IMG/VR virus record: IMGVR_UViG_3300047509_000152
Span: 1 to 43,912 of that record
Source of the DNA: a virus
DNA length: 43,912 nucleotides
Direction: 5' to 3' (one strand)
This document shows positions 37 to 43,912 of the stretch, piece after piece. The notes beneath the pieces are model-generated. The model was not told where the DNA came from. It did no database searches and worked only from the letters and a program-made list of their open reading frames with translations. Position numbers and translations under genes: made by a program. The number at the start of each line of letters is the position of its first letter. Within the stretch, counting starts at the first letter, position 1.

Positions 37-1278
37 ATGTTGGCTGATCTGACGACCCTGGACGCGCTGAAGCCGGACCCGGCGAACCGGCGGAAACACA
101 ACGCGCGCAACCTCGACATGATCGCGACGGCCCTCAAAGACGTCGGCGCGGCGCGATCGATCGTCATCGACGAGGACAACGTCATCCTGGCCGGCAACGG
201 CGTGACGGCGGCCGCGGCCGCGGCGGCGGGGATCTCGAAGCTCCGGGTGGTCGATGCGGCCGGCGACGAACTGATCGCGGTGCGGCGGTCGGGCCTCACC
301 GCCCAACAACAACAGAAGCGGGCGCTGGCGCTCTACGACAACCGAACCGCGGAACTGGCCGAATGGTCGGTCGCGCAGCTCCAGGCGGACCTGACGAACG
401 GGGAAGACCTGACGGCGTTCTTCCTGCCGGCGGAATTGAAGGCCCTGTTCGGCGTGAAGCCGGGCGAGACCGATCCTGACGCCACCCCCCCCCCCCGACC
501 GACCGGCATCGTGGTGGGCGACCTCTTCGAGCTAGGGACACACCGCCTCCTCTGCGGCGATTCGACGACGTCGGGCGACGTGGCGCGCCTCATGGGTAAC
601 GTCGTGCCATTCCTGATGGTCACCGACCCGCCGTACGGCGTGGCGTACGACCCAAAGTGGAGACTTGAGTCTGGGATCAACAAGTCTCACCAGAAGCGAG
701 CGGAGGGCGTGGTCGCCAACGATGACCGGGCGGACTGGTTGCCGGCGTGGCAGCTCTTCCCGGGGGACGTCGCGTATGTCTGGCACGGCGGCCTCCACGC
801 GACGGTCGTGAGCACGGGCCTCCTCGCGGCCGGCTTCGACGTGCGCAGCCAAATTATCTGGGCGAAGCCGAGCCTGGTCATCGGCCGCGGGCACTATCAC
901 TGGCAGCACGAGCCCTGCTGGTACGCGGTCCGGAAGAGCGCCGCCGCGAAGTGGGCGGGCGATCGGAAACAGGCGACCGTGTGGGCGATTGCCAACATGC
1001 ATCGCACGCAGGGGAACGTCGACGACGGCAAGACCGATCACGGCACACAGAAGCCGGTCGAGTGCATGCTCCGGCCGATTCGCAATCACGGCGGCCCTGA
1101 CGATCACGTCTACGACCCGTTCGTCGGATCGGGTACCACGCTGATCGCGGCGGAGCAGGCCGAGCGCCGGTGTTTTGCGATGGAGCTCACGCCGGCATAC
1201 GTGCAGATGGCGATCGACCGTTGGGAAGCCTTCACGGGATCCACCGCCGTCAAGGTCGGCGAGGCGGTCCGTTCATGA
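37..1278 (+). CDS. ParB-domain/DNA methyltransferase fusion
   Basis: Residues 1 to about 110 look like a ParB/Srx-type N-terminal domain (KPDPANRRKHN, then VILAGNGV). Residues about 160-400 are a DNA methyltransferase with the catalytic motif DPPYG near residue 198 and the SAM-binding motif DPFVGSGTT near residue 360. The DPPY-before-FxGxG order is that of beta-class N6-adenine/N4-cytosine enzymes. Such fusions are common next to phage terminase genes and probably modify phage DNA against host restriction. A GAGG ribosome site lies a few bases before the ATG. A run of ten C (485-494) codes for prolines in the linker between the domains. The stop overlaps the next start as ATGA. Target base and site cannot be read from the sequence. 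Confidence 0.9.
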   Translation: MLADLTTLDALKPDPANRRKHNARNLDMIATALKDVGAARSIVIDEDNVILAGNGVTAAAAAAAGISKLRVVDAAGDELIAVRRSGLTAQQQQKRALALYDNRTAELAEWSVAQLQADLTNGEDLTAFFLPAELKALFGVKPGETDPDATPPPRPTGIVVGDLFELGTHRLLCGDSTTSGDVARLMGNVVPFLMVTDPPYGVAYDPKWRLESGINKSHQKRAEGVVANDDRADWLPAWQLFPGDVAYVWHGGLHATVVSTGLLAAGFDVRSQIIWAKPSLVIGRGHYHWQHEPCWYAVRKSAAAKWAGDRKQATVWAIANMHRTQGNVDDGKTDHGTQKPVECMLRPIRNHGGPDDHVYDPFVGSGTTLIAAEQAERRCFAMELTPAYVQMAIDRWEAFTGSTAVKVGEAVRS

Positions 1279-1742
1279 GAGGCCGCAAACCGATCCCGCG
1301 TGCGATTCATATCCTCCGCGGCAACCCCGGCAAGCGCCCGCTCTCCCCAGACGAACCGCAGCCCGCCGTGACGGTCAGGCTCCGCGCGCCGTCCTGGCTC
1401 GACAAGGAAGCGAAAAAGGAATGGCGCCGCCTCGCGCCGCTGCTCGAGCGGCTCGGCGTGCTGACCGAGACGGACACCGGCGCGCTCACCGCGTACTGCG
1501 AGGCCTGGGCGACCTGGAAGGGCGCGACGCAGAAGATCCGTGAGTTCGGCCTGGTCATCAAACATCCGACCGCGGGGAAGCTGCCGGTGGTCTCGCCCTA
1601 CGTGAAGATCGCCGACAACGCGCTGACCCAGATGCGCGGGCTCCTCGTCGAGTTTGGGATGACGCCGAGCTCGCGGGCGCGGATCCACGTGCCGAAGAAA
1701 GAAAAGCCGGTCGAGTCCAAGTGGGCTGGCGCGTTCAAGTGA
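1275..1742 (+). CDS. terS: Terminase small subunit, P27 family
   Basis: 155 residues starting MRGRKPIPRAIHILRGNPGK, the typical opening of P27-family small terminases, followed by a helical region rich in W, R and K. It binds the packaging start on phage DNA and recruits the large subunit. The ATG at 1275 overlaps the methyltransferase stop by 4 bases, which is why I prefer it to upstream in-frame starts. The large terminase follows directly. Confidence 0.9.
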   Translation: MRGRKPIPRAIHILRGNPGKRPLSPDEPQPAVTVRLRAPSWLDKEAKKEWRRLAPLLERLGVLTETDTGALTAYCEAWATWKGATQKIREFGLVIKHPTAGKLPVVSPYVKIADNALTQMRGLLVEFGMTPSSRARIHVPKKEKPVESKWAGAFK

Positions 1743-2638
1743 AAGAGTCCGCCGGCGCGCGCGCCGTTCGGCTGATCAACAACCTGACCCACACGGCGGG
1801 GCCGTTCGCGCGGAAGCCGTTCGCGCTGCGCCCGTGGCAAATGCAGAAAATCATCAAGCCGCTGTTCAAGCTGCGGCCGGACGGGCTGCGCCTGTACCGC
1901 ACCTGTCTCCTGATGCTGCCGCGGAAGAACGGCAAGACGGAACTGGCGGCGGCGCTGGCGCTGTACTTCCTGCTGTTCGACGGCGAGATTGGCGGCGAGA
2001 TCTACTGCGCCGCCGGCGACCTCGAACAGGCCTCGAAAGTCTTCGACGCGATGATCGTGATGATCGAGAACGACCCGGAGCTCGACGCCCAGGTCGAGAT
2101 CATCCGGTCCCAGAAGCGGATCGTCCATCGGGCGAGCGGCAGCTTCGTGCGCGCCCTGTCCGCGGAGGCATACACCAAGCACGGCCTCAACGCCTCGGTC
2201 GTCATCTACGACGAGCTGCACGTCGCACCGAACCGGGATCTCTGGGACGTGCTCGCGACGTCGATGGGCGCGCGCTTGCAGCCACTCCTGATGGCGATCA
2301 GTACCGCCGGCTACGACCGGCATTCGATCTTGTGGGAGCTGTACGACCACGCGCAGAAGGTCCTCGAAAACCCCAGCCTCGATCCGACGTTCCTGCCAAT
2401 CCTGTTCGAAGCGCCGATCGGCGCGGACTGGACCGACGAGAAGGTCTGGAAGCTGGCGAACCCGGCGCTCGGCGACTTCCGGAGCCTCGACGAGATGCGC
2501 GTGATGGCCGCCCGGGCGCAAGCGATCCCCGCACAGGAGATGACGTTCCGCCGGCTGTACTTGAACCAGTGGACGGAGAGCGCCGAACGCTGGATCTCGC
2601 TCGCGGCCTGGGACGCGTGCAACGTGGTGGCGGCATGA
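1739..2638 (+). CDS. terL: Terminase large subunit, ATPase half
   Basis: About 299 residues holding only the packaging ATPase of an HK97-type large terminase. Walker A is LPRKNGKTE near residue 62 and Walker B is VVIYDELH near residue 157, followed by the coupling region SMGARLQPLLMAISTAG. The frame stops at 2636-2638, where the nuclease domain would normally begin, and the nuclease is a separate ORF starting in the overlapping ATGATG. I chose the GTG at 1739 because it makes a GTGA overlap with the small subunit; a GTG at 1721 is also possible. The usual single protein is about 550 residues. Confidence 0.88.
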   Translation: MKESAGARAVRLINNLTHTAGPFARKPFALRPWQMQKIIKPLFKLRPDGLRLYRTCLLMLPRKNGKTELAAALALYFLLFDGEIGGEIYCAAGDLEQASKVFDAMIVMIENDPELDAQVEIIRSQKRIVHRASGSFVRALSAEAYTKHGLNASVVIYDELHVAPNRDLWDVLATSMGARLQPLLMAISTAGYDRHSILWELYDHAQKVLENPSLDPTFLPILFEAPIGADWTDEKVWKLANPALGDFRSLDEMRVMAARAQAIPAQEMTFRRLYLNQWTESAERWISLAAWDACNVVAA

Positions 2639-3288
2639 TGACGCGGGCCCAGTTTCGCGCGCGGTTGAAGGGGCGGCGGTGTTATGTCGGGCTCGACCTC
2701 GGGTCGACGAAGGACCTGACGGCGACCGTGGGCGTCTTCCCCGACGACGTGGGCCCAGGCTTCGACGTCCTCGCGCAGTTCTTCATGCCGGACGACAACA
2801 TCTCCGAGCGCGTGCGGCGGGACCGCGTCCCGTACGACCAATGGAAGCGCGACCAGTTCCTCATCGCCACGCCGGGCCCGGTCACCGACTACGAGTACGT
2901 GCGCGCGTCGCTCCACGCGTGGGCGGACGAGTTCGACATCCGCGAGCTCCCCTACGACCCCTGGAATGCGACCGACCTGGTGTCCCGGCTCCTCCAGGAC
3001 GGCCTGCCGTGCGTCCCGATCCGCCAGGGCTTCGTCACGCTGACGGCGCCGACCAAGTCCCTCGAGACGGCCATCCTGTCGAAGCGGCTGCGGCACGACG
3101 GGCACCCGATCCTCCGCTGGAACATCGGGAACATTGTGGTCGAGCTGGACGCGGCCGGAAACTACAAGCTGTCGAAGGCGCTCAGCACGGAACGGATCGA
3201 CGGCGCGGCCGCGCTCGTGAACGCGATCGATCGGATGGACCGGCATAGCGACGCGCCGGCCGCGGATCCCGTCCTGGTGACCGCATGA
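2635..3288 (+). CDS. terL: Terminase large subunit, nuclease half
   Basis: 217 residues matching the C-terminal RNase H-like nuclease of large terminases. It has GLDLGSTKDLT near residue 19 (first catalytic Asp), YDPWNAT near residue 107, and a C-terminal acidic stretch DGAAALVNAIDRMDRH. This nuclease cuts the concatemer at packaging start and end. It begins in another frame from the ATPase half, at ATGATG, so translation could restart on the upstream stop. The split falls exactly between the two domains. A single-base error that breaks one gene in two cannot be excluded. Confidence 0.85.
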   Translation: MMTRAQFRARLKGRRCYVGLDLGSTKDLTATVGVFPDDVGPGFDVLAQFFMPDDNISERVRRDRVPYDQWKRDQFLIATPGPVTDYEYVRASLHAWADEFDIRELPYDPWNATDLVSRLLQDGLPCVPIRQGFVTLTAPTKSLETAILSKRLRHDGHPILRWNIGNIVVELDAAGNYKLSKALSTERIDGAAALVNAIDRMDRHSDAPAADPVLVTA

Positions 3289-29625: not shown

Positions 29626-30792
29626 GCTGCGTAAGTGCCGGCGCCGGCGCCCCTTGCGGGCCGGGACAGCTTTCGGGGACAGCTTTCGACCCGTCGCCCG
29701 CCCGCCGAGCTGCACGCGGGCGACCGCCGCCACGTTCACCGCCGCATGCGCGGCCGCCGTGTAGCGTGAGGTCACCGGCGACCCGGGCGCGTGCATGCCG
29801 AGCCGTCCCACCGTCGCCGTGTCGCGGGTCGCCAGGTACAGCTGCCCGAGAAACGAGTGCCGCAAATCGTAGATGGTCAGGTGCTCGGTCACGCCCGCGC
29901 GCCGCGCCGCCCGCTGAAACGATCGGTTGAGCGCCGAGGCGGCGAACGTGCCGTAGGCGTGCGCCTGGTCGAACGCCACGAGCGCCGCGCGCCCCTCGGC
30001 CGACAGCGGCAGCGTGCGCGCCTCCACGCCGCCGGCCTTCAACCGCCGTTCGAGCCGCATCGTCGACGGCCGGGTCCGCAGCTGCACGTCGCCGGGCTGG
30101 AGATCGCCGAGCATCCCGGGCGGGATCCCCGCGTAGGCGATCACCGCCGCGCGCAGCGGCGCGAGGCTCAGCACCTTCGGTGCGCCACGCGTCACCGACC
30201 GATACGTCGGCATCGCCGCCAGGATCGTGGCGATGGTCCCGTAGTCGGTGCCGCGCAGTTCCGGTTTCGCCGCCGCGATCGAGAACGCGCCGCGCACGGG
30301 GTTCGCGCCGCCTTTCCCGTTCAGCACCCGGAAGAACGAGCGCAGCGTCGACCGGCGCTTCAGGACGGTCTGATCGCTCAGGCCGTCGGGCCCGACCGGG
30401 CGGCCGCGCGGCGCCGGCGGCGGGCGGGTGGTCAGCCAGGCGTTCAGAACGATGTCGATCTCGGTCGACGTGATCGAGTGCGGCGAGCGGTCGCGCCCGA
30501 GCGCCGCGGCCCACAGGGCCATGTGCGCCAGCATCTGCGTGGCTGTGGGCTTCGCGGCGATGCGCTGCCCGAAGATCACGATCGCCGCAGCGAAGGTCCC
30601 GCGCTCGACGCGCCGGCCGCCGCCGAAGTGCTCGCGCTGCGTCTTCAGTCGCCAGGCGCGGATGGTCTCGAGCGGTTCGTCGGGCCCGTAGTCTTTGTGG
30701 TACTGGACCCCGCGGACTTTGATGTAGCCCTGTAGCCCGCCCTTCCACGGACGGATCCCGCGCTCGAGGCGACGGGTCTTGCGGCGGGTCAT
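29617..30792 (-). CDS. int: Tyrosine integrase
   Basis: 391 residues. N-terminal arm-binding part (RRLERGIRPWKGGLQGYIKV), core-binding helices about 65-165, and a catalytic domain from about 180 with Lys252 region, TIYDLRHSF (Arg311, His312), LGMHA (His334) and TSRYTAA (Tyr344 nucleophile). At the place of the first catalytic Arg the sequence is AGIPPGML, with Pro instead of Arg, as I recall in some phage integrases. It inserts and excises the phage at the tRNA-Glu site. Stop lies within the attP core; start overlaps the preceding gene (ATGA). A longer overlapping minus-strand frame is only a shadow. Confidence 0.88.
   Translation of the reverse strand: MTRRKTRRLERGIRPWKGGLQGYIKVRGVQYHKDYGPDEPLETIRAWRLKTQREHFGGGRRVERGTFAAAIVIFGQRIAAKPTATQMLAHMALWAAALGRDRSPHSITSTEIDIVLNAWLTTRPPPAPRGRPVGPDGLSDQTVLKRRSTLRSFFRVLNGKGGANPVRGAFSIAAAKPELRGTDYGTIATILAAMPTYRSVTRGAPKVLSLAPLRAAVIAYAGIPPGMLGDLQPGDVQLRTRPSTMRLERRLKAGGVEARTLPLSAEGRAALVAFDQAHAYGTFAASALNRSFQRAARRAGVTEHLTIYDLRHSFLGQLYLATRDTATVGRLGMHAPGSPVTSRYTAAAHAAVNVAAVARVQLGGRATGRKLSPKAVPARKGRRRRHLRSAS
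29663..29687. repeat. Right arm-type direct repeats of attP
   Basis: Two tandem copies, GGGACAGCTTTC (29663-29674) and GGGGACAGCTTTC (29675-29687), inside the 3' end of the integrase gene. They mirror the pair at 29434-29456 across the tRNA-like core. Confidence 0.5.
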
Positions 30793-34719: not shown

Positions 34720-35061
34720 ATGACCCCCGACGACGAGAACCGGCGCCTCGCCCTGGCCTACGACAAGCTCGAGATCGCCCTCGCGGCGATCGGGGACGCC
34801 ACGAGCCGCGACGCCTGCCGGGAGCATGATCGGGCGCTCGCCGCGCTCGAAGTGCGGGCCGCGATGGCCGCAATCCAAGAGGTGCAGCGCGCCCGCACCG
34901 AATACCTCACGAACGCCGACGTCTGGACCGTGCTCGACCTGATCGTCGCGGAGTTCACGTCGGACCCGAAGTGCCATGCCTGGTTCGATGAACGCCTGGT
35001 CGCGCGCGCGATCGTCTTGAACCGCGAGCACCGCCGCGCCGCACCGGAGGTCCCGGCATGA
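34720..35061 (+). CDS. Unknown helical protein
   Basis: 113 residues: LALAYDKLEIALAAIGDATS, then VRAAMAAIQEVQRARTEYLT. Largely helical, charged. Stop overlaps the next ATG. Its first 17 bases recur at 34423. No family recognised. Confidence 0.6.
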   Translation: MTPDDENRRLALAYDKLEIALAAIGDATSRDACREHDRALAALEVRAAMAAIQEVQRARTEYLTNADVWTVLDLIVAEFTSDPKCHAWFDERLVARAIVLNREHRRAAPEVPA

Positions 35062-35942
35062 CGATCGCCCGCGTCAGCACCCAAAATGAACTCGATGTGG
35101 CGCTGGCTACGCCAGCCCCACATGAAATCTGGATCTGCGGCACCGGAGACTTCGTCCTGCGCGACAGCGCGCAGCACTTCGTTCGAGCCACCGACACGTC
35201 GCACGTCGTGGCCCGGGAGAGTTCGCACGTCGAGGCCCGGGGGAGTTCGCACGTCGTGGCCCGGGGGAGTTCGCACGTCGTGGCCTGGGGGAGTTCGCAC
35301 GTCGTGGCCCGGGAGAGTTCGCACGTCGAGGCCTGGGAGAGTTCGCACGTCGTGGCCTGGGAGAGTTCGCACGTCGAGGCCCGGGAGAGTTCGCACGTCG
35401 AGGCCTGGGAGAGTTCGCACGTCGTGGCCTGGGGGGCGGTGCTGGTCCGCGCGCGCGATCGCGCGAACGTGAAGGCGGCGTCGACGTTGATCGTGATTAT
35501 GAATCACGCGACGACGACGTCAATTGAGGGCGGCACGGTTGTGCAGGTCCCTCCGGTGACGACGGCTGAGGCCTGGTGCGACTACTACGGCGTCGAGGTG
35601 CAGGACGGGATCGCGATGGTCTATAAGGCCGTCAACGATGCGTACCGCAGCGGCTACGACTTTCCCTACACGCCGGGGTCGATCCCAGTCGCGTCCGATT
35701 GGGACGGGGGCCGCGCCGAATGCGGGGGCGGCCTGCACTTCTCACCCACGCCCATCGCGGCAAAGGATTTCAATAACGGCGCGACGCGCTTCCTCGCCTG
35801 CCCGGTCCGGCTCACCGACATCCGCGCGCCCAAGGCGAACGACAGTCACCCCTCCAAGATCAAGGCGTCGGGGTGTTGCGGGCCGGTCGTGGAAGTCGAT
35901 CTTTGGCGGCAGCCGATGGTGCGCGCGGGAGGCGCCGCGTAA
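35058..35942 (+). CDS. Octapeptide-repeat (beta-helix-like) protein
   Basis: 294 residues. Residues 1-46 lead into ten tandem octapeptides (SSHVVARE and variants) at 47-126, which probably fold as a small right-handed beta-helix like pentapeptide-type proteins. Residues 150-285 form a separate domain (WCDYYGVEVQDGIAMVYKAV, YRSGYDFPYTPGSIP, TRFLACPVRLTDIRAPKAND), a pattern I recall in small phage proteins of unknown role. Only three positions of the octapeptide vary (V/E, R/W, E/G). No signal peptide. Confidence 0.72.
   Translation: MTIARVSTQNELDVALATPAPHEIWICGTGDFVLRDSAQHFVRATDTSHVVARESSHVEARGSSHVVARGSSHVVAWGSSHVVARESSHVEAWESSHVVAWESSHVEARESSHVEAWESSHVVAWGAVLVRARDRANVKAASTLIVIMNHATTTSIEGGTVVQVPPVTTAEAWCDYYGVEVQDGIAMVYKAVNDAYRSGYDFPYTPGSIPVASDWDGGRAECGGGLHFSPTPIAAKDFNNGATRFLACPVRLTDIRAPKANDSHPSKIKASGCCGPVVEVDLWRQPMVRAGGAA
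35196..35435 (+). repeat. 24-bp tandem repeat, ten units
   Basis: Ten in-frame 24-base units containing AGTTCGCACGTCG. Apart from the first unit they differ almost only at three bases: GTG/GAG, CGG/TGG and GAG/GGG. Copies are nearly identical, so the array is young and may change length by slippage without breaking the frame. Confidence 0.8.
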
Positions 35943-36439: not shown

Positions 36440-36634
36440 ATGCGATTCGCCGCCGACTGCGTTCCCAGCCGCGCGTGCGAGCGAGCACCGTTCGATCGGA
36501 ATTCCAAAGGACGCGACCACGGCCAAGCCCTGAGAAGCAACCACCGTGATCGGCGTCCTTGTGCTCGGAGTACTAGGGTGCCAACTATTTTACACACGCC
36601 CGCGGCCGATCGTCTGTCGGGGACCCGACAGTGA
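36440..36634 (+). CDS. Possible small ORF before replication gene
   Basis: 64 residues with a good ribosome site (AGGAG at 36426-36430), overlapping the next GTG by 4 bases. Arg/Ala/Cys-rich with no recognisable motif. Spacing argues for it, composition against it. Confidence 0.35.
   Translation: MRFAADCVPSRACERAPFDRNSKGRDHGQALRSNHRDRRPCARSTRVPTILHTPAADRLSGTRQ
36614..36631. promoter_or_regulatory. Operator-like palindrome at the replication gene start
   Basis: CTGTCGGG and CCCGACAG separated by GA, ending on the G of the GTG start codon at 36631. The half-site GACAG also recurs in the immunity region. A repressor bound here, or an RNA hairpin hiding the start, could control replication. Confidence 0.5.
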
Positions 36635-37851
36635 GTGCCGCGGCTGAAATCTACGCGAGGACCGTCCTGGTGAAAGGCAGCGCGCGCGCGCTGCTCGAGG
36701 CGCTCGCACAACTGATTCCGGAGGGGCAGACGACCACACCCTTGATCGGCATGGACGCGCTCGCGGACCGCGCACGGTGCACCCGACGGACGGTGCTGAC
36801 CCAGCTGCAGGTGTTGGTCGAGGCCGGCGAGCTCGAGGTGGTCGATGGCGGCTCGGGTCGGATCGCGCGCTACACCCTCGTGCACGTGGATGGGGCGCGG
36901 CCGATGACGCCGGCGCCGCTGCCGCTGCTCGGGACCGCCCCGCCGCCTCGCGTGTCGAGGCCGAGTACGTCCCCCTCGTCGTCGACGCCCGACCTGTTCG
37001 ATCTGCCGGCGCCGTCGACGTCAGGCGATCAAACAGCGATCAACCTGCGCAATTTTTTCACAGGTTGGGTCCGCGAACCTGTGATCTTTTTTCACAGGTT
37101 GCTCGGAGGGCTCGCGACACCTGTGAAGAAATTGCGCAGGTTCACCAGGGCCGAGCGATCAAATGGCGATCAACCTGCGCAAAAAGATCACAGGTTGACC
37201 CCGATCGAGCGATCAGATCGCGAAGAACCTGTGAAAAAAGATCACAGGTTGGCCGACGTAGTACGTACAACAACAACTACGAGTACAACAACCGCGCGCG
37301 AGACGACGAACGCGCCGACGTGCGGTCCGTGGCATGCCTGGTGCGGCGGTCGTGTCCACGTCCCCAAGAATCAGCACAAGGAATTCCTCCGACGCCTCAG
37401 CCGACAACCCGGCGAGACGGACGCGGCGCTCGAGGCGCGGGCCTTCGCCTGCTACGCCGCGGAGCTGGCCACGATCCCCGACGACCAGTCGATCGCCATT
37501 AAGAGCGAGTTCGACTTCTGGCGGCCGCGGTTCGCGACGATGCTGGCCGCGGCCGCGCCGGTGCGCCGCGACCCGACGATTCACCAGGTGGCCGCCGGCG
37601 ACGTCTGGGCCGACGTCCTCCGGGTGATCGACCTGAAGGTGAACCGCCACGCCTTTCACTCCTGGTTCGTGCCGACCGCGCTCGTCGAGGACCGGGGGAG
37701 CGTGATCGTCATCGCCGGTCCGGCCGCGCACGGCGATCTCTTCGTCGACTGGATCGAGAAACACTACGGCGACGTCGTGCGTGAGGCGGTGGAGGCCGTC
37801 CGCCCGGGTACGCGGATCGAGTTTGTACGACAACAGAGAAAGTCCGGATGA
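36631..37851 (+). CDS. Replication initiator with DnaA-N-type domain
   Basis: 406 residues. N-terminal winged helix-turn-helix at about 30-95 (GMDALADRARCTRRTVLTQL, VEAGELEVVDGGSGRIARYT). A Pro/Ser linker and a repetitive section at about 135-210. C-terminal residues about 325-400 match DnaA domain I (VWADVLRVIDLKVNRHAFHS, then LFVDWIEKHYGDVVREAVEA), which in DnaA contacts helicase. Likely it opens the phage origin and brings in host helicase. The repetitive section is encoded by iteron-like inverted repeats (37041-37251), so the origin is probably inside the gene, as in lambda O. Confidence 0.75.
   Translation: MSAAAEIYARTVLVKGSARALLEALAQLIPEGQTTTPLIGMDALADRARCTRRTVLTQLQVLVEAGELEVVDGGSGRIARYTLVHVDGARPMTPAPLPLLGTAPPPRVSRPSTSPSSSTPDLFDLPAPSTSGDQTAINLRNFFTGWVREPVIFFHRLLGGLATPVKKLRRFTRAERSNGDQPAQKDHRLTPIERSDREEPVKKDHRLADVVRTTTTTSTTTARETTNAPTCGPWHAWCGGRVHVPKNQHKEFLRRLSRQPGETDAALEARAFACYAAELATIPDDQSIAIKSEFDFWRPRFATMLAAAAPVRRDPTIHQVAAGDVWADVLRVIDLKVNRHAFHSWFVPTALVEDRGSVIVIAGPAAHGDLFVDWIEKHYGDVVREAVEAVRPGTRIEFVRQQRKSG
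37041..37251. repeat. Iteron array, candidate origin of replication
   Basis: Five inverted-repeat units made of AACCTGTGA or AACCTGCGCAA, a short A/T-rich spacer, and the inverse (TCACAGGTT or TTGCGCAGGTT). Units begin near 37042, 37076, 37118, 37172 and 37226, the last ones exactly 54 bases apart. A/T runs of six lie in several units. The bases that follow (37259-37290) are richer in A/T and low in complexity, as in a DNA unwinding element. They lie inside the initiator gene. Confidence 0.7.
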
Positions 37852-38048: not shown

Positions 38049-38662
38049 GCACCCACGACGACTCGGTGAAGCGGTTCCCGCTCGAGTGGCCCGCCGGCTG
38101 GAAGCGCACGCCGGCGCCGAACCGCGTGAACGGTCCCTTTCGCACAAAGGAATCGAACTGGCTCTCCGTGACGCAGGCGACGGCGCGACTCGAGACGGAG
38201 CTCGAGCGGCTGAACGCGAAGTCGCCCACCCTGTCGACGAACGTCTCGCTGCGCCTGGACGGCCGGCCACGGTCCGACGAGAATCCAAAGGATCCCGGCG
38301 CGGCGGTCTACTTCACCTTCCGCGGCCGCGCGACGGTGCTCGCGGCGGATCGCTACCGCCTGGTCGCGGACAACATCGCGGCGATCGCGGCGCACATTGA
38401 ATCGTTGCGGCGCATCGAACGGCACGGCGTCGGGACAATGGAACAAGCGCTCGCCGGCTATCGATCGCTGCCGGCCGACACCGCCGCGAACTGGCGCGCG
38501 GTGTTCGGGTTCGCCGCGGACAGCACGCCCACACTCGACCAGGTCGACAAGGCCTACAAGGCGGCCGCGCGACAACACCATCCCGACGCCGGCGGCAGCG
38601 ACATCAACATGGCGCACGTGAACCGGGCGCGCGACTACGCGCTGATGGAGTTGCAACCATGA
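38045..38662 (+). CDS. J-domain protein (DnaJ-like)
   Basis: 205 residues. FPLEWPAGWKRTPAPNRVNG at the start and VAD-N-IAAIAAHIESLRRIER near residue 120 are typical of a phage family I recall with a C-terminal J domain. The J-domain part has AYKAAARQHHPDAGGSD with the HPD motif that activates DnaK. Placed right after the replication initiator, it may recruit host DnaK to remodel the replication complex, as lambda P needs DnaJ/DnaK. Direct evidence for that is lacking. Confidence 0.8.
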   Translation: MSTHDDSVKRFPLEWPAGWKRTPAPNRVNGPFRTKESNWLSVTQATARLETELERLNAKSPTLSTNVSLRLDGRPRSDENPKDPGAAVYFTFRGRATVLAADRYRLVADNIAAIAAHIESLRRIERHGVGTMEQALAGYRSLPADTAANWRAVFGFAADSTPTLDQVDKAYKAAARQHHPDAGGSDINMAHVNRARDYALMELQP

Positions 38663-38973
38663 ACATCGAAGCCGCCACCATGACCGTCGATCGCAGCATC
38701 GCCCGCGCGCACTTACCAGGCATATCGGACGGCCATCAAGAGCGGGAAGGCGACGCGCGACGACGTGATGCTCTACAAGGGCTATCGCGCGCTGCTCCGC
38801 GGCCAGAAGGTGATCGACATCGTCGCGGCGATCGGCGGCGGCGGCCTCGACGCCCAAACACCAATCTCCCGGCGGCCGACATCCGGCGGGCGATCGACGC
38901 CGGCGAACTGAAGGCGCGCAAGACCGGCCGCGGCGGCTGGCGCATTCGGCGCCGGGACCTGGAGGCGCTGTGA
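38659..38973 (+). pseudogene. Mosaic/frameshifted gene: small phage protein fused to AlpA-like end
   Basis: Three natural pieces in two frames. The start MNIEAATMTVDRSIARA is in frame 1. YQAYRTAIKSGKATRDDVML and LLRGQKVIDIVAAIGGGGLD are in frame 2 (38714-38855), a known kind of small phage protein. Then NLPAADIRRAIDAGELKART-like sequence ending GGWRIRRRDLEAL is again in frame 1 and is the last half of an AlpA-type HTH whose first half is missing. This looks like an indel plus a deletion that fused two genes. The whole frame-1 ORF is not a normal protein. Confidence 0.55.
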
Positions 38974-39209
38974 AGGACGAGATCGCCGAATTGGTGAAGC
39001 ACGGGCGCATCCGGAATCAGTTGCTGACCGCACGCACTGTGGAGTGCGAACTGAGCGAGGCCGCGCGGCGTGTGGTGCGACTGTCGAAGGCCGGGACGCC
39101 AGAGCGCATGCTCACATTGGCGGCCGTCGCCGACGAATCAGGGCTCTCGGCGGGCGCCATCGTGAAGGCCATCATTCAAGCCCAGCGGCGGGACCTGGAG
39201 CAGCTCTGA
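38970..39209 (+). CDS. HTH protein with shortened wing
   Basis: 79 residues from GTG. LTLAAVADESGLSAGAIVKA is helix-turn-helix-like, directly followed by QAQRRDLEQL. The ending RRDLEQL is the same as in the neighbouring AlpA-like genes, but the wing between is absent. It may be a recombinant of two genes. Confidence 0.5.
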   Translation: MKDEIAELVKHGRIRNQLLTARTVECELSEAARRVVRLSKAGTPERMLTLAAVADESGLSAGAIVKAIIQAQRRDLEQL

Positions 39210-39517
39210 TGGCGACGAAGAGGGCGACGCGAAGGGACAGCTTGCCGCCGACCCGTCACCGCAACCCGCAGCCTCCGACGAACGCGCACCGAGACCGCGC
39301 CGCAGAACGAGAGCGTAGCAGCGCGTGGTGGCAGCAGCGGCTCGCGCGCGGGATTTGCGCCGCATGTCGACGTCCACTTCCTGACGACTGGCCAACAAAC
39401 TGGCCTGTTCATCGCGCCTGCGGTCGACTGGCCGCCCGGGGCGTCCGCTACGCCGCGATTCGACAGCTGACGCCAGCGCAAATCGAAGAGCAAGCTCGAC
39501 CTCTGGGGCCGCGGTGA
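39209..39517 (+). CDS. Zinc-binding small protein
   Basis: 102 residues. CAACRRPLPDDWPTNWPVHR ends in HRACG, giving a C-C-H-C zinc site; basic N-terminus (ATKRATRRD). Start overlaps the previous TGA, stop overlaps the next GTG. Function unknown. Confidence 0.55.
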   Translation: MATKRATRRDSLPPTRHRNPQPPTNAHRDRAAERERSSAWWQQRLARGICAACRRPLPDDWPTNWPVHRACGRLAARGVRYAAIRQLTPAQIEEQARPLGPR

Positions 39518-39849
39518 TGTGTGAACAGATGCCGATGCCAGGCGGCGGGGTCGCGATCGTCTGCGGCGGGCATAGTCGGACGCCGCGCTGCCGCTGCGGG
39601 CGCCTGTCCCTCGTGCTTTGCGACGGCCCTGGGAAGCCACGCCGCGGCCTCAAGTCCGTCACGTGCGATCGTCCGCTCTGCGCCCGCTGCCGCATCCACG
39701 TGCCCCCAAATCAGGATTTCTGTCGGGACCATCGGCAACACGCGAAGGAAGCCGCCGCGCAGCTCCAGCTCTTCGATGGCGCCGAGCCACCCGCGTCCGA
39801 CCCCGCGGGGGCAACCAAGGCCGACGCACACCCAGCGGAGTCCGCGTGA
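39514..39849 (+). CDS. Cysteine-rich protein, paralogue 1
   Basis: 111 residues from GTG at 39514 (ATG at 39517 possible). MPMPGGGVAIVCGG, CRCGRLS, SVTCDRPLCARCRIHVPPNQ and DFCRDHR give six or more zinc ligands. A clear paralogue is at 40304-40597. The C-terminus is Ala/Pro-rich. These small proteins may bind DNA; role unknown. Confidence 0.62.
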   Translation: MMCEQMPMPGGGVAIVCGGHSRTPRCRCGRLSLVLCDGPGKPRRGLKSVTCDRPLCARCRIHVPPNQDFCRDHRQHAKEAAAQLQLFDGAEPPASDPAGATKADAHPAESA

Positions 39850-40013
39850 GATCCGTCTCCGACCGCCGCGCCCTGTTTCTCACCGTCGAAGAGGCGTCGG
39901 CGCTGACCGGGCTGACGCAGGCGTACCTGCGGCGGGCGATCGAGGGCGGGACGCTCAAGGCCATCAAGGATCGGGGCTGGCGGATTCGGCGCCGGGATCT
40001 GGAGCAGCTCTGA
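39846..40013 (+). CDS. AlpA/excisionase-type HTH
   Basis: 55 residues from GTG in a GTGA overlap: LFLTVEEASALTGLTQAYLR then GGTLKAIKDRGWRIRRRDLE. Complete small winged HTH of the excisionase/AlpA type. Its 3' end matches those at 38973 and 39209. Confidence 0.65.
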   Translation: MRSVSDRRALFLTVEEASALTGLTQAYLRRAIEGGTLKAIKDRGWRIRRRDLEQL

Positions 40014-40303
40014 TGATCGACAAGGCGCTGCGTGACGCCATCCATCGGAACTTCAAAGGGCTCAGCGGGAGTCAGACGTTCTGCCTGTTGTGGAACGACA
40101 AGATGGTCGACGAGGTGATCCCGATCATACAGATGGGGCTCGCGGTCTTCCTGGATAAACCAATCGTTGTGTTGATGCCCAAGGGCGCGACGCTCTCGGC
40201 GAACGTCCGCGCGATGGCGACCGCGATCGAGGAGTTCGATCCCGACAACGAAGCATCAATGAACGCCGCGGTCGAGCGCCTCGTGCGCAGCGGGAAGATG
40301 TGA
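40013..40303 (+). CDS. Rossmann-like small protein
   Basis: 96 residues: VDEVIPIIQMGLAVFLDKPI then VVLMPKGATLSANVRAMATA. The pattern of a helix holding xxQMGLA then DKPIVVLxPxG resembles the core of nucleoside deoxyribosyltransferase/TIR-like Rossmann folds, seen in short phage proteins. No catalytic Glu can be assigned with confidence. Could handle nucleotides, or be a degenerate fold. Confidence 0.55.
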   Translation: MIDKALRDAIHRNFKGLSGSQTFCLLWNDKMVDEVIPIIQMGLAVFLDKPIVVLMPKGATLSANVRAMATAIEEFDPDNEASMNAAVERLVRSGKM

Positions 40304-40597
40304 ATGTGTGAACGCGTGCCGATGCCGGGCGGCGGGGTCGCGATAGTCTGCGGCGGGCGCCACCGTCGTCACCGGCCCTGCGCGCACTGCGGGCAGCCAT
40401 CCGCGTTCGCATGTGACGGGCCGCGGCGGCATCATGCTGGAAAAAGCGTGACCTGTGACCGGCCGCTTTGTCGATCGTGTCGCATCCACGTGCCACCGAA
40501 CCAGGATTTCTGTAAGGCCCATCGGATCCAGGCGAAGGACGCGGCCGCGCAGCTCCGGCTGTTCGACGGCGCCGCCTCGTTCGAGCGGGTGAAGTGA
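40304..40597 (+). CDS. Cysteine-rich protein, paralogue 2
   Basis: 97 residues. Shares VPMPGGGVAIVCGG, SVTCDRPLC, CRIHVPPNQDFC and AAAQLRLFDGA with the protein at 39514-39849, plus CAHCGQP. The two genes have arisen by duplication with about 790 bases between their starts. Stop overlaps the next GTG. Confidence 0.62.
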   Translation: MCERVPMPGGGVAIVCGGRHRRHRPCAHCGQPSAFACDGPRRHHAGKSVTCDRPLCRSCRIHVPPNQDFCKAHRIQAKDAAAQLRLFDGAASFERVK

Positions 40598-40896
40598 AGT
40601 ACGCCGTCACGATCGACGAAGGCCAGCGGCAGTTGCTACTGCTCGCCCTGGCCAAGCTCTCGATCGAGGGGCCCGGTTGGCACTGGACGCTCGGCGAGCT
40701 CGCCGAGGAGTTTTCCGGGCGCGCGCTATTCGAGCAGTTCCGCAAGATTCATAACGCCTCGAACGTCGACGCGCTCATCGTTGCAGTCCGGGCGCTCGAT
40801 CCCGCCGCGGCCGACGACAAACCCTATCGCGATTGGGATGCCGCGAAGTGGGCCGTGTTCAACGCGGCCGTGCGATTCGTGAAGGAGCAGCCCTAA
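40594..40896 (+). CDS. Unknown small protein
   Basis: 100 residues from GTG: YAVTIDEGQRQLLLLALAKL then ELAEEFSGRALFEQFRKIHN. Helical, acidic. Part of the same overlapping gene series. No family recognised. Confidence 0.6.
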   Translation: MKYAVTIDEGQRQLLLLALAKLSIEGPGWHWTLGELAEEFSGRALFEQFRKIHNASNVDALIVAVRALDPAAADDKPYRDWDAAKWAVFNAAVRFVKEQP

Positions 40897-41222
40897 TGGC
40901 CTTCTGGGGAAAGTCCACCGACGCGCAGCGCGAGTTCCTCGTCGCGGAGATCGTCCGCGCGCTCGAGCACTCGGCGATCCCGCGGCATCTCCGCGGGGGG
41001 TTGGCCCGGTACTTCTCGGACGGGATATTGCCCGGCGCGTTCCTCCAGGCGGTGCTCTGTAACGACCTCACGCAGGCAGTGACACGGACCGGGCCCGGAT
41101 CCGAGTTCGCGCTCCCGGCCCTGATCGACTTTCTCCTGGAGCATGCGCCCGCAACGGCGTGGGGCTCGCGCGAGGCGGTGCTCGCCTGGACGACGACGCC
41201 GCTGTCGCTGGAGATCAAGTGA
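40896..41222 (+). CDS. Unknown small protein
   Basis: 108 residues: STDAQREFLVAEIVRALEHS then ALPALIDFLLEHAPATAWGS. Mostly helical. Starts one base into the previous TAA. Function unknown. Confidence 0.6.
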   Translation: MAFWGKSTDAQREFLVAEIVRALEHSAIPRHLRGGLARYFSDGILPGAFLQAVLCNDLTQAVTRTGPGSEFALPALIDFLLEHAPATAWGSREAVLAWTTTPLSLEIK

Positions 41223-41701: not shown

Positions 41702-42526
41702 TCAGGCGACCGATTTCCGCTTCGACCCCGTCGCCTTCGCCGGCCGTTTCTTCGCGGCGCTGATCGCCGCCACGCTCCGCAGGAGGTCCTCGAGGAGGCT
41801 GCCCGAACGCAGCGCGGGACTCGGCGCCGGCGTCACGATCGCCTCGCCGGCGACCTTCGCCTCAATCAGCTTCCGCAGCCCCGCCTGGTAGTCATCGGTG
41901 AAGTCCGCCAGGTTCAACGGGCCGGTGAAGGCGGCGATCACCTGGCGGGCGAGCCGGACGTCTGACGCCTTCGCCCTGTGGACGATCTTCAGTTCGTCGA
42001 ACGCGTCGGGCGATCGCAGCTCGCCGGCGTGGTGCAGCGTGTGCAGCACCAGCACCCGATTCTCGAGCACGCGGACCGCGACCAGATACTCGCGCCCATA
42101 CAACGCCACCTTCCCGATCCCGACTTTCCGATGCAGCGCGGCCGTCAGGACCGCGTACCCGGTCCCGGCGCCATCCGGGGCGAGGTAGTAGGTCCGATCG
42201 ACGTACATCGGATCGAGCGCGTCGACGTCGGCGAAGGCCTGTAGGTCGATCACCCGCGCGGAGTCCGTCCGGACCGATTCGAAGTCGCTTTCCTTGAACA
42301 GCACGTACTGGCCGGCCGCGAATTCGAAGCCCTTCACGATCTCGTCGTAGGGCACCTCGCGCGCGCAGGTGGCGCACCAGCGTTTCTGTTCGACCCGCGT
42401 CTGGCATTTCTCATGGAGCTGGTTGAACTTCAGCGGCTCGTCGGCATTCGTGGCGGGGAAGACCTTGATCGGGATCGTGACCAGGCTGATCTTCAGCACG
42501 CCCTTCCAAGTCGGCCGCGCGCTCAC
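41702..42526 (-). CDS. ku: Ku DNA end-binding protein
   Basis: 274 residues, normal size for a bacterial Ku: ARPTWKGVLKISLVTIPIKV at the start, CQTRVEQKRWCATCAREVPY, EIVKGFEFAAGQYVLFKESD, YYLAPDGAGTGYAVLTAALH, and a basic C-terminus (AAKKRPAKATGSKRKSVA) that in Ku binds DNA. Ku forms a homodimeric ring that threads onto DNA ends for non-homologous end joining, usually with LigD, which is absent here. Mycobacteriophages Corndog and Omega also encode Ku, for joining their genome ends. GTG start in a 4-base overlap with the preceding minus-strand gene. Confidence 0.9.
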   Translation of the reverse strand: MSARPTWKGVLKISLVTIPIKVFPATNADEPLKFNQLHEKCQTRVEQKRWCATCAREVPYDEIVKGFEFAAGQYVLFKESDFESVRTDSARVIDLQAFADVDALDPMYVDRTYYLAPDGAGTGYAVLTAALHRKVGIGKVALYGREYLVAVRVLENRVLVLHTLHHAGELRSPDAFDELKIVHRAKASDVRLARQVIAAFTGPLNLADFTDDYQAGLRKLIEAKVAGEAIVTPAPSPALRSGSLLEDLLRSVAAISAAKKRPAKATGSKRKSVA

Positions 42527-42747
42527 GAGGCGAACTCCCAGCCGCCAGCCCACGGCAACGGCGCTCCGACCGGAGCACTGCGTTTGATGCGGTCTCGGCA
42601 GCCCACGCACCACGAGCGATAACCCTGAACGACATGTGACGGGTCCAGCAGACAGCCGCCGCAGCCTTGACAGTGGGTGTGTCGCTGGTGGTCCAACGCG
42701 AAGATCTCGAAGTCGGTCAGCGACTCCAGCGCGTCACGGCGATTCAT
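42523..42747 (-). CDS. Zinc-binding small protein before Ku
   Basis: 74 residues: HCQGCGGCLLDPSHVVQGYR, then SWCVGCRDRIKRSA. Two cysteine pairs suit one zinc ion. It overlaps the preceding HTH gene by 14 bases and Ku by 4, so all three form one operon. Function unknown. Confidence 0.6.
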   Translation of the reverse strand: MNRRDALESLTDFEIFALDHQRHTHCQGCGGCLLDPSHVVQGYRSWCVGCRDRIKRSAPVGAPLPWAGGWEFAS

Positions 42748-42994
42748 GGTGGCCGTTCCCGTTGCCGTTCGACGTCCGGTTGGCGTCGATGAACGCCTTC
42801 AGGTCGAGGGGATCGATCCGCCAATGCCCGCCGAAGCGAATCGCGTGGAGCTGCTTCGCGCGGATGCGCCGGAGCACCGTCTCATGGCTACAGCGCAGCT
42901 TGTAGGCGACCTCGTGGACCTCGAGGAGACGATCCGGGTGCGCGTCGTGGGGCTCGATCGGCATGCGGTGTTCAGGGATTGTGCCGCCCTTCAC
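42734..42994 (-). CDS. Excisionase-type HTH protein, first gene of Ku operon
   Basis: 86 residues from GTG (an ATG at 42964 would give 76). LLEVHEVAYKLRCSHETVLR then LHAIRFGGHWRIDPLDLKAF is the standard excisionase/MerR-type DNA-binding domain. It could be the excisionase or the regulator of the minus-strand operon. Gly/Asn/His-rich end. Confidence 0.7.
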   Translation of the reverse strand: MKGGTIPEHRMPIEPHDAHPDRLLEVHEVAYKLRCSHETVLRRIRAKQLHAIRFGGHWRIDPLDLKAFIDANRTSNGNGNGHHESP

Positions 42995-42997
42995 GGT

Positions 42998-43033
42998 ATT
43001 TTAGCCGACGACGCGGCACGACTCGGCACGACT
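42998..43033 (-). promoter_or_regulatory. Candidate promoter and operator of the Ku operon
   Basis: Minus-strand TAAAAT (43003-42998) is a good -10 only a few bases before the first possible start. Upstream are two tandem copies of a 10-base repeat, CGGCACGACT on the + strand (43014-43023 and 43024-43033), which could be operator sites. No clear -35. Confidence 0.4.
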
Positions 43034-43158: not shown

Positions 43159-43527
43159 ATGCCGAGGCCGTCACGCACCACCGACGACCCACGCTTCCGC
43201 CACGGCCTCCGCGTGCGCGTGGGCGGCGCCACCGGCGCCAAAGGGATGTTGCTCCGGTGCGAGAGGCGCGACGGCACCGGCCACTACTGGAAGGTCCGGC
43301 TGCAGAGCGGCGCGTGGGTCTGGCCTGACGGACTAATCCTCGACGGCGTCGGCGACCAGGTCGCGGTCTGCGAACAGTGCGGGCTGCGGTTCATGACGAC
43401 CAAGGTGGGCGATGGCCTGCTCTGCGCGCGCTGCGATGAGGAGTTGTTCGGCACGCAGACCCGAGCCGTCGAGCCGCGCGACGATCTCATTGGACGTGCG
43501 CAGCGCGCGCGTCGGGGTGCCCGCTGA
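43159..43527 (+). CDS. Zinc-ribbon protein before HNH nuclease
   Basis: 122 residues: FRHGLRVRVGGATGAKGMLL, YWKVRLQSGAWVWPDG, then CEQCGLRF and CARCDEELFG. A small beta domain and a four-Cys ribbon, with a basic end. Overlaps the HNH start by one base. The 164-base gap before it holds the Ku-operon promoter. Confidence 0.6.
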   Translation: MPRPSRTTDDPRFRHGLRVRVGGATGAKGMLLRCERRDGTGHYWKVRLQSGAWVWPDGLILDGVGDQVAVCEQCGLRFMTTKVGDGLLCARCDEELFGTQTRAVEPRDDLIGRAQRARRGAR

Positions 43528-43865
43528 TGGCGCTGGCGCCGCCCCGTCCCTGCCCGCATCTAGGGTGCGCGCGCCTGGTCGTCGGTGGTGGGCGCTGTCC
43601 TCATCATCCACGGCCGAGCGCGTCTCAACGTGGCTACGACAGTCGATGGACGGTCTACGCGAGCAACTGGCTCGCGCGCTTCCCGTGGTGCGGCATGCGG
43701 ATCGACGGGCAGTTCCATGCCGAGCACAGTGCGTGCGCGCGTCGCGGCCAACGCGTCGCCGCGCGCGTCGTCGATCACATCGTGTCGATCGCGCGCGGCG
43801 GCGCGGTGTTCGATCCACTGAATCATCAGTCGCTCTGTCGCAGCTGCAACGTCGTGAAGGGATGA
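43527..43865 (+). CDS. HNH endonuclease
   Basis: 112 residues. An N-terminal Cys/His cluster (CPHLGCARL, CPHHP), RGYDSRWTVYASNWLARFPW, then the HNH core VVDHIVSIARGG (Asp83, His84), LNHQSLCRSC (Asn99, Cys104, Cys107). The usual final His is Asn108, a known H-N-N variant. HNH nucleases next to terminase are needed for cos cutting in HK97-like phages. It is the last gene before the sequence end and would lie beside the methyltransferase/terminase genes on a circle. Confidence 0.82.
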   Translation: MALAPPRPCPHLGCARLVVGGGRCPHHPRPSASQRGYDSRWTVYASNWLARFPWCGMRIDGQFHAEHSACARRGQRVAARVVDHIVSIARGGAVFDPLNHQSLCRSCNVVKG

Positions 43866-43912
43866 GGGGTGGGGGGGCATCGCAATCACCAGCGATTCCG
43901 GCGCCAACAGAC
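43866..43912. other. End of sequence, no gene
   Basis: 47 bases after the HNH stop with a run of seven G. Together with bases 1-36 they would make an 83-base gap on a circular genome, the expected neighbourhood of a packaging site. I cannot identify a cos sequence. Confidence 0.4.

Follow-up and report, generated by a model that had tools for sequence, protein, structure and literature searches.

A possible second lineage of phage Ku, related to Acidobacteriota Ku, near the packaging genes of cos-type soil phages

The phage Ku proteins most pertinent here are those of Omega and Corndog, which are linked to 4-nucleotide 3′ ends and to circularization by non-homologous end joining (NHEJ; PMC3706429, PMC4351075). 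A 2025 survey recovered only 11 viral Ku proteins, every one from actinobacteriophages (PMC11936186), and another study did not find NHEJ transfer between phages and bacteria (PMC7719229). In other bacteria, the minimal C terminus of Ku serves LigD binding or the stimulation of ligation (PMC9638933). A more distant counterpart is Mu Gam, a Ku-related phage protein that binds ends and for which protection of linear phage DNA has been proposed (PMC1378119).

Here we analyse a Ku gene in a soil phage, using an IMG/VR record of 43,912 bp that is classed as linear and is taken whole as the window. The sequences point to an independent Ku lineage from another phylum, retained by soil phages in about 20 contigs whose cos ends appear ordinary. 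If this is true, phage Ku requires a second explanation beyond the closure of short ends, most simply that it protects or repairs the DNA of the infecting phage, and would represent a clear bacteria-to-phage transfer of an NHEJ gene.

The phage genome and its HTH-led Ku operon

The window holds a tailed-phage gene set that includes the small and large terminase subunits, a major capsid protein, an integrase and a replication initiator. The integrase gene (29617–30792, minus strand; PHROG_1, 1.9e-8; PF00589, 27.9 bits on the genome) is of the tyrosine type and suggests a temperate lifestyle. Iteron-like repeats (AACCTGTGA...TCACAGGTTG, 37025–37251) lie within the DnaA_N-like replication initiator gene (36631–37851) and resemble an origin located in an initiator gene, and a 24-nucleotide tandem repeat array of about ten or more units (35151–35500) sits in an open reading frame (35058–35942) that matches PHROG_15773, a family with no assigned function. 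Runs of small genes in which an ...RRRDLEQL end is followed by a GPGAALM-like start occupy 38659–41222, and the same pattern recurs in L002 (12100–13500).

Ku is encoded on the minus strand at 41702–42526, from a GTG at 42526 to a stop at 41702, as a frame of 274 residues with no internal stops and a GC3 of 0.88. Its match to PF02735 (E = 3.8e-38; score 131.7 bits, cut-off 25; profile positions 2–176 of 190) covers the β-barrel core over the whole domain, the match to PHROG_4873 (‘Ku-like DNA end binding’, 4.5e-43) spans residues 4–266, and the alignment to solved bacterial Ku chains is nearly full length (residues 4–265). The C-terminal motif L-x3-L-x2-S and a lysine-rich tail are retained, giving the minimal C-terminal region with a basic extension that is characteristic of bacterial-type Ku. 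Leu244, Leu248 and Ser251 are invariant across the aligned phage proteins and most carry the basic tail, with little tail in L095, L010 and some others. Neither ATP-dependent nor NAD-dependent ligase families were matched in the 22 Ku-positive virus records, comprising the window and 21 others. The original prediction of a full-length, bacterial-type Ku without a ligase is therefore borne out.

Ku is the last gene of a three-gene minus-strand operon with short overlaps, in which it is preceded by a helix–turn–helix (HTH) gene and a gene for a small CxxC protein. The HTH_17 or excisionase-like DNA-binding protein (42734–42994, with a second possible start at an ATG at 42964; Pfam 4e-9; PHROG_66, ‘excisionase and transcriptional regulator’, 1.4e-7) is likely to be the operon regulator. 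The middle frame (42523–42747, from the list of open reading frames) encodes 74 residues with zinc-ribbon-like C-x2-C motifs and overlaps the Ku start by 4 nucleotides; it matched no Pfam or PHROG family, the fetched contigs yielded no convincing relative, and a conserved zinc protein beside Ku was rejected. The predicted operon thus stands for the HTH gene, Ku and the overlaps between genes, and less firmly for its zinc protein. Just upstream, two tandem copies of the 10-bp repeat CGGCACGACT (43014–43033) adjoin a minus-strand TAAAAT, together a possible operator or promoter, and a scan of the operon for sigma-70 promoters and terminators returned no consensus match.

Relatives of the HTH gene lie directly upstream of Ku in 11 other Ku-positive contigs. 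The same gene in four Ku-less relatives (L097, L099, L100 and L128) is followed by a different conserved protein; since the HTH gene precedes either Ku or another protein, it appears to lead a cassette in which Ku is sometimes the cargo. The alternative occupant of the Ku slot, on the minus strand in L097 (7898–8293), L099 (4012–4509) and L128 (4009–4509), is 53–66% identical among these contigs and scored above the cut-off for no Pfam or PHROG family. An apparent HTH–Ku fusion in L226 (9703–10818) was rejected, because the Ku start (PRHLERRPPDQ...) is out of frame in the combined reading frame, which indicates a frameshift and excludes a fusion.

Virion ends and the position of Ku

The small terminase subunit (1170–1742, plus strand; Pfam Terminase_4, 8.9e-31; PHROG_83, 5.8e-51) is followed on the same strand by a large subunit divided between two genes, an ATPase half (1721–2638; PHROG_9, 3.2e-91) and a nuclease half (2635–3288; PHROG_2699, 1.4e-61 for the frame, and sequence), so that 1721–3288 encodes the halves joined by an ATGA overlap. 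A single large-subunit gene at 1834–3288 was rejected, the ATPase half being a separate overlapping gene. Among relatives, the halves are in different frames in several and in one frame or with insertions in others; the insertion in L112 and L113 is about 0.87 kb. A ParB-domain DNA methyltransferase (37–1278) separates the cos end from the small terminase gene; it is in the same place in some relatives and absent from others.

A scan with the terminase ATPase returned 283 relatives, and among the best 80 of these together with the window (81 contigs) 23 start within 2 nucleotides of one motif, which lies shortly before the small terminase gene or before the methyltransferase that precedes it. 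The first base of the window falls exactly at this motif (CCGGCGCGCGAGGTTCCGCAGAAT, 1–24). Because 16 of the 23 contigs served to train the motif matrix, the weight rests on the clustering of the starts, which is visible in the raw sequences. At the right end, a poly-G tract followed by ...GGCGCCAACAGAC (43869–43912) corresponds to the right ends of L112, L139 and L152 and to contigs that span the junction. An HNH endonuclease gene (43527–43865, plus strand; Pfam HNH, 1.8e-5; PHROG_144, 1.2e-15) belonging to the packaging module ends 47 nucleotides before the right end. The resulting order, HNH–cos–TerS–TerL with fixed ends between HNH and the TerS side, is a cos-packaging layout, and the ends of the window look like real virion ends.

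Junction-spanning relatives bear on the overhang. L112 (56,629 bp) has both edges and is 99.96–100% identical to L113, which spans the junction and has exactly nine extra bases, CGCTGAGCA, between the right and left edges of L112; for L139, L141 and L142 there are ten such bases, CGCTGGAGCA. Bases missing at both ends would follow from a 3′ overhang removed by end repair during library preparation, whereas fill-in of a 5′ overhang would make the overhang bases appear twice. We infer a 3′ overhang on these grounds. Measured against its nearest relatives, L095 and L096, the stretch missing from the window would be 8–10 nucleotides, so the overhang is probably about 8–10 nucleotides and absent from the contig, and the virion molecule would have cos ends with a 3′ overhang of that length. 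The relatives thus depart from an atypically short, 4-nucleotide overhang, at 9 nucleotides in L112/L113 and 10 in L139/L141/L142. An element made up of the poly-G tract and then (C)GGGAAACCGC, or a close variant of it, is present in most junction-spanning Ku-positive contigs (L005, L007, L008, L098, L212, L213, L216, L220, L221, L223, L225 and L226). It is also found in Ku-less relatives, of which L099, L107, L112 and L139 have the same cos element and terminase as the Ku-positive contigs.

The HTH–CxxC–Ku operon begins about 0.9 kb from the right end, in keeping with the predicted closeness to the genome ends, which look physical. All 16 non-redundant Ku-positive relatives with a terminase in the same fetched locus have Ku upstream of, and divergent from, the terminase, with an HNH gene between the two in 11. 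The terminase is further off in L002 and L009, likewise on the strand opposite to Ku; in L214 and L217 it was looked for within 10 kb only.

Ku lineage and presumed host

Apart from the window, three IMG/VR scans yielded 23 contigs that encode this Ku, at least about 20 after removal of near copies. In an annotated phage collection, the only Ku relatives are about 26–32% identical, nearly all from mycobacteriophages. The proposed comparison with bacterial and phage Ku was carried out in two trees and roots a phage clade in Acidobacteriota Ku. Nine viral proteins form one clade (100/94) within Acidobacteriota Ku in the first tree, far from mycobacteriophage Ku, which falls among Actinomycetota Ku, so that the tree gives no common descent of the two. 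The larger tree, whose bootstrap had not settled, contains 21 viral proteins. A supported clade (100/96) unites 18 of them, the window Ku among these; the full 21 fall to one side of a branch that has weak support (85/0), and some of the viral proteins sit on long branches. It is safest to read this as one main phage lineage that derives from Acidobacteriota (Vicinamibacteria-type) Ku, in which the placement of L002, L004 and L009 is less certain. Among the phage genes, pairwise dN/dS is 0.20–0.52 and lowest in the closest pair, values that are rough because synonymous divergence is high for many pairs; they indicate that phage Ku is under purifying selection.

From the Ku tree only, the host would be a Vicinamibacteria-type acidobacterium. 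Of the 32 genomes encoding the related bacterial Ku, 31 have the ligD_pol domain; none of the ten Ku-positive phage contigs tested has it. The suggested check for host ligD therefore comes out positive for the nearest bacterial Ku group, and host LigD is probably available to a phage that encodes none. The presumed hosts already encode both Ku and LigD, so the phage copy could be redundant. Terminase relatives occur in 7 of 193 genomes of the Vicinamibacteria class at 33–43% identity, and integrase matches in these genomes are at most 35% identical; the terminase and integrase searches found no prophage of the window type in the class, and the short loci returned had no Ku near a terminase.

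Possible roles of the phage Ku

The reading that we favour, if tentatively, is that Ku is an accessory end-binding factor, probably recruiting LigD, that protects or repairs phage DNA. The 3′ cos overhang of 8–10 nucleotides would anneal and be sealed by an ordinary host ligase, leaving Ku dispensable for cos closure. By analogy with lambda-like phages, the right end, to which Ku is proximal, would be the first to enter the cell. Ku dimers would thread onto free phage DNA ends, whether these are injected or come from breaks that host defences make, bridge them and guard them against exonucleases of the host, and the conserved C-terminal region would recruit host LigD to reseal the breaks. The ordinary ends, the Ku-less relatives, the conserved C terminus and the LigD of the host group together favour this role. 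The fuller proposal, that a second, independently acquired phage Ku lineage acts from the first-entering end to shield or reseal defence-attacked DNA through host LigD, we put forward with less confidence than the role itself.

Circularization as suggested for Omega and Corndog, in which injected ends are bridged by Ku and sealed by host LigD, was the model named in the original prediction. It accords with a Ku gene near the ends, the lack of a phage ligase, LigD in the host group and a retained LigD-contacting C-terminal region, and with the company that Ku keeps with 4-nucleotide 3′ ends in the cluster J and O mycobacteriophages (PMC3706429, PMC4351075). However, we consider it unlikely here. 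Sticky ends of an ordinary 8–10 bases fit poorly with short-end closure as an explanation of phage Ku, and L099, L107, L112 and L139 have the cos element and terminase but no Ku, so that closure in this group does not in general depend on Ku. It is therefore improbable that Ku is strictly required to close the ends, and the occurrence of the same cos element with and without Ku weakens the model. Long cohesive ends, named at the outset as a result that would count against it, are largely what the relatives have, provided that 9–10 nucleotides is long relative to the 4 of Omega and Corndog.

Rather less probable is a gene expressed in the lysogen, as the original prediction also suggested, and under HTH control, a moron that would boost double-strand break repair of host or prophage. 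The strand opposite to the lytic genes, the operon’s own HTH gene and the tyrosine integrase in 8 of 22 Ku-positive records (the window and seven relatives, mostly long ones) are consistent with this, but the gene stays near the packaging module and away from the integrase, and Ku and LigD are already encoded by the presumed hosts.

We give still less credence to an end blocker that acts without LigD and only protects linear DNA from host nucleases, for which the Ku relative Mu Gam, as a protector of phage DNA ends (PMC1378119), and the closeness of Ku to the presumed leading end provide the case. The LigD-linked C-terminal region, whose loss one would expect in a pure blocker, is kept, with the basic tail in most. 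Gam is not known to have the LigD-contacting C terminus of bacterial Ku.

Chance capture of a recent host gene without function, a decaying pick-up against which the original prediction was to be judged, finds a footing in the nesting of phage Ku in the bacterial tree but is highly improbable, being rejected by the intact frame and invariant residues, the long-diverged clade, the conserved position and the dN/dS values indicative of purifying selection. We thus favour protection or repair over short-end circularization, lysogen repair and Gam-like blocking, in that order, while recognizing that these readings overlap.

Set beside the known systems, the window Ku resembles those of Omega (cluster J) and Corndog (cluster O) in being a single-domain protein of a tailed phage that has no LigD and is presumed to use that of the host. 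It differs in sequence (about 26–32% identity), in its place among Acidobacteriota rather than Actinomycetota Ku, in a genome of 43,912 bp compared with 70–115 kb, and in virion ends put at about 8–10 nucleotides in the window type compared with 4-nucleotide 3′ ends in those phages (PMC3706429, PMC4351075); placement of Ku beside the terminase, as in the window lineage, is not shown for Omega and Corndog. Mu Gam (PMC1378119) is likened to the window Ku by description. Closest are the chromosomal Ku proteins of Acidobacteriota (L011, L013, L016, L019 and L062), which are 55–58% identical over the full length with the same domain layout and C-terminal motif; they have no phage neighbours among the window proteins, and the phage copies group apart from them.
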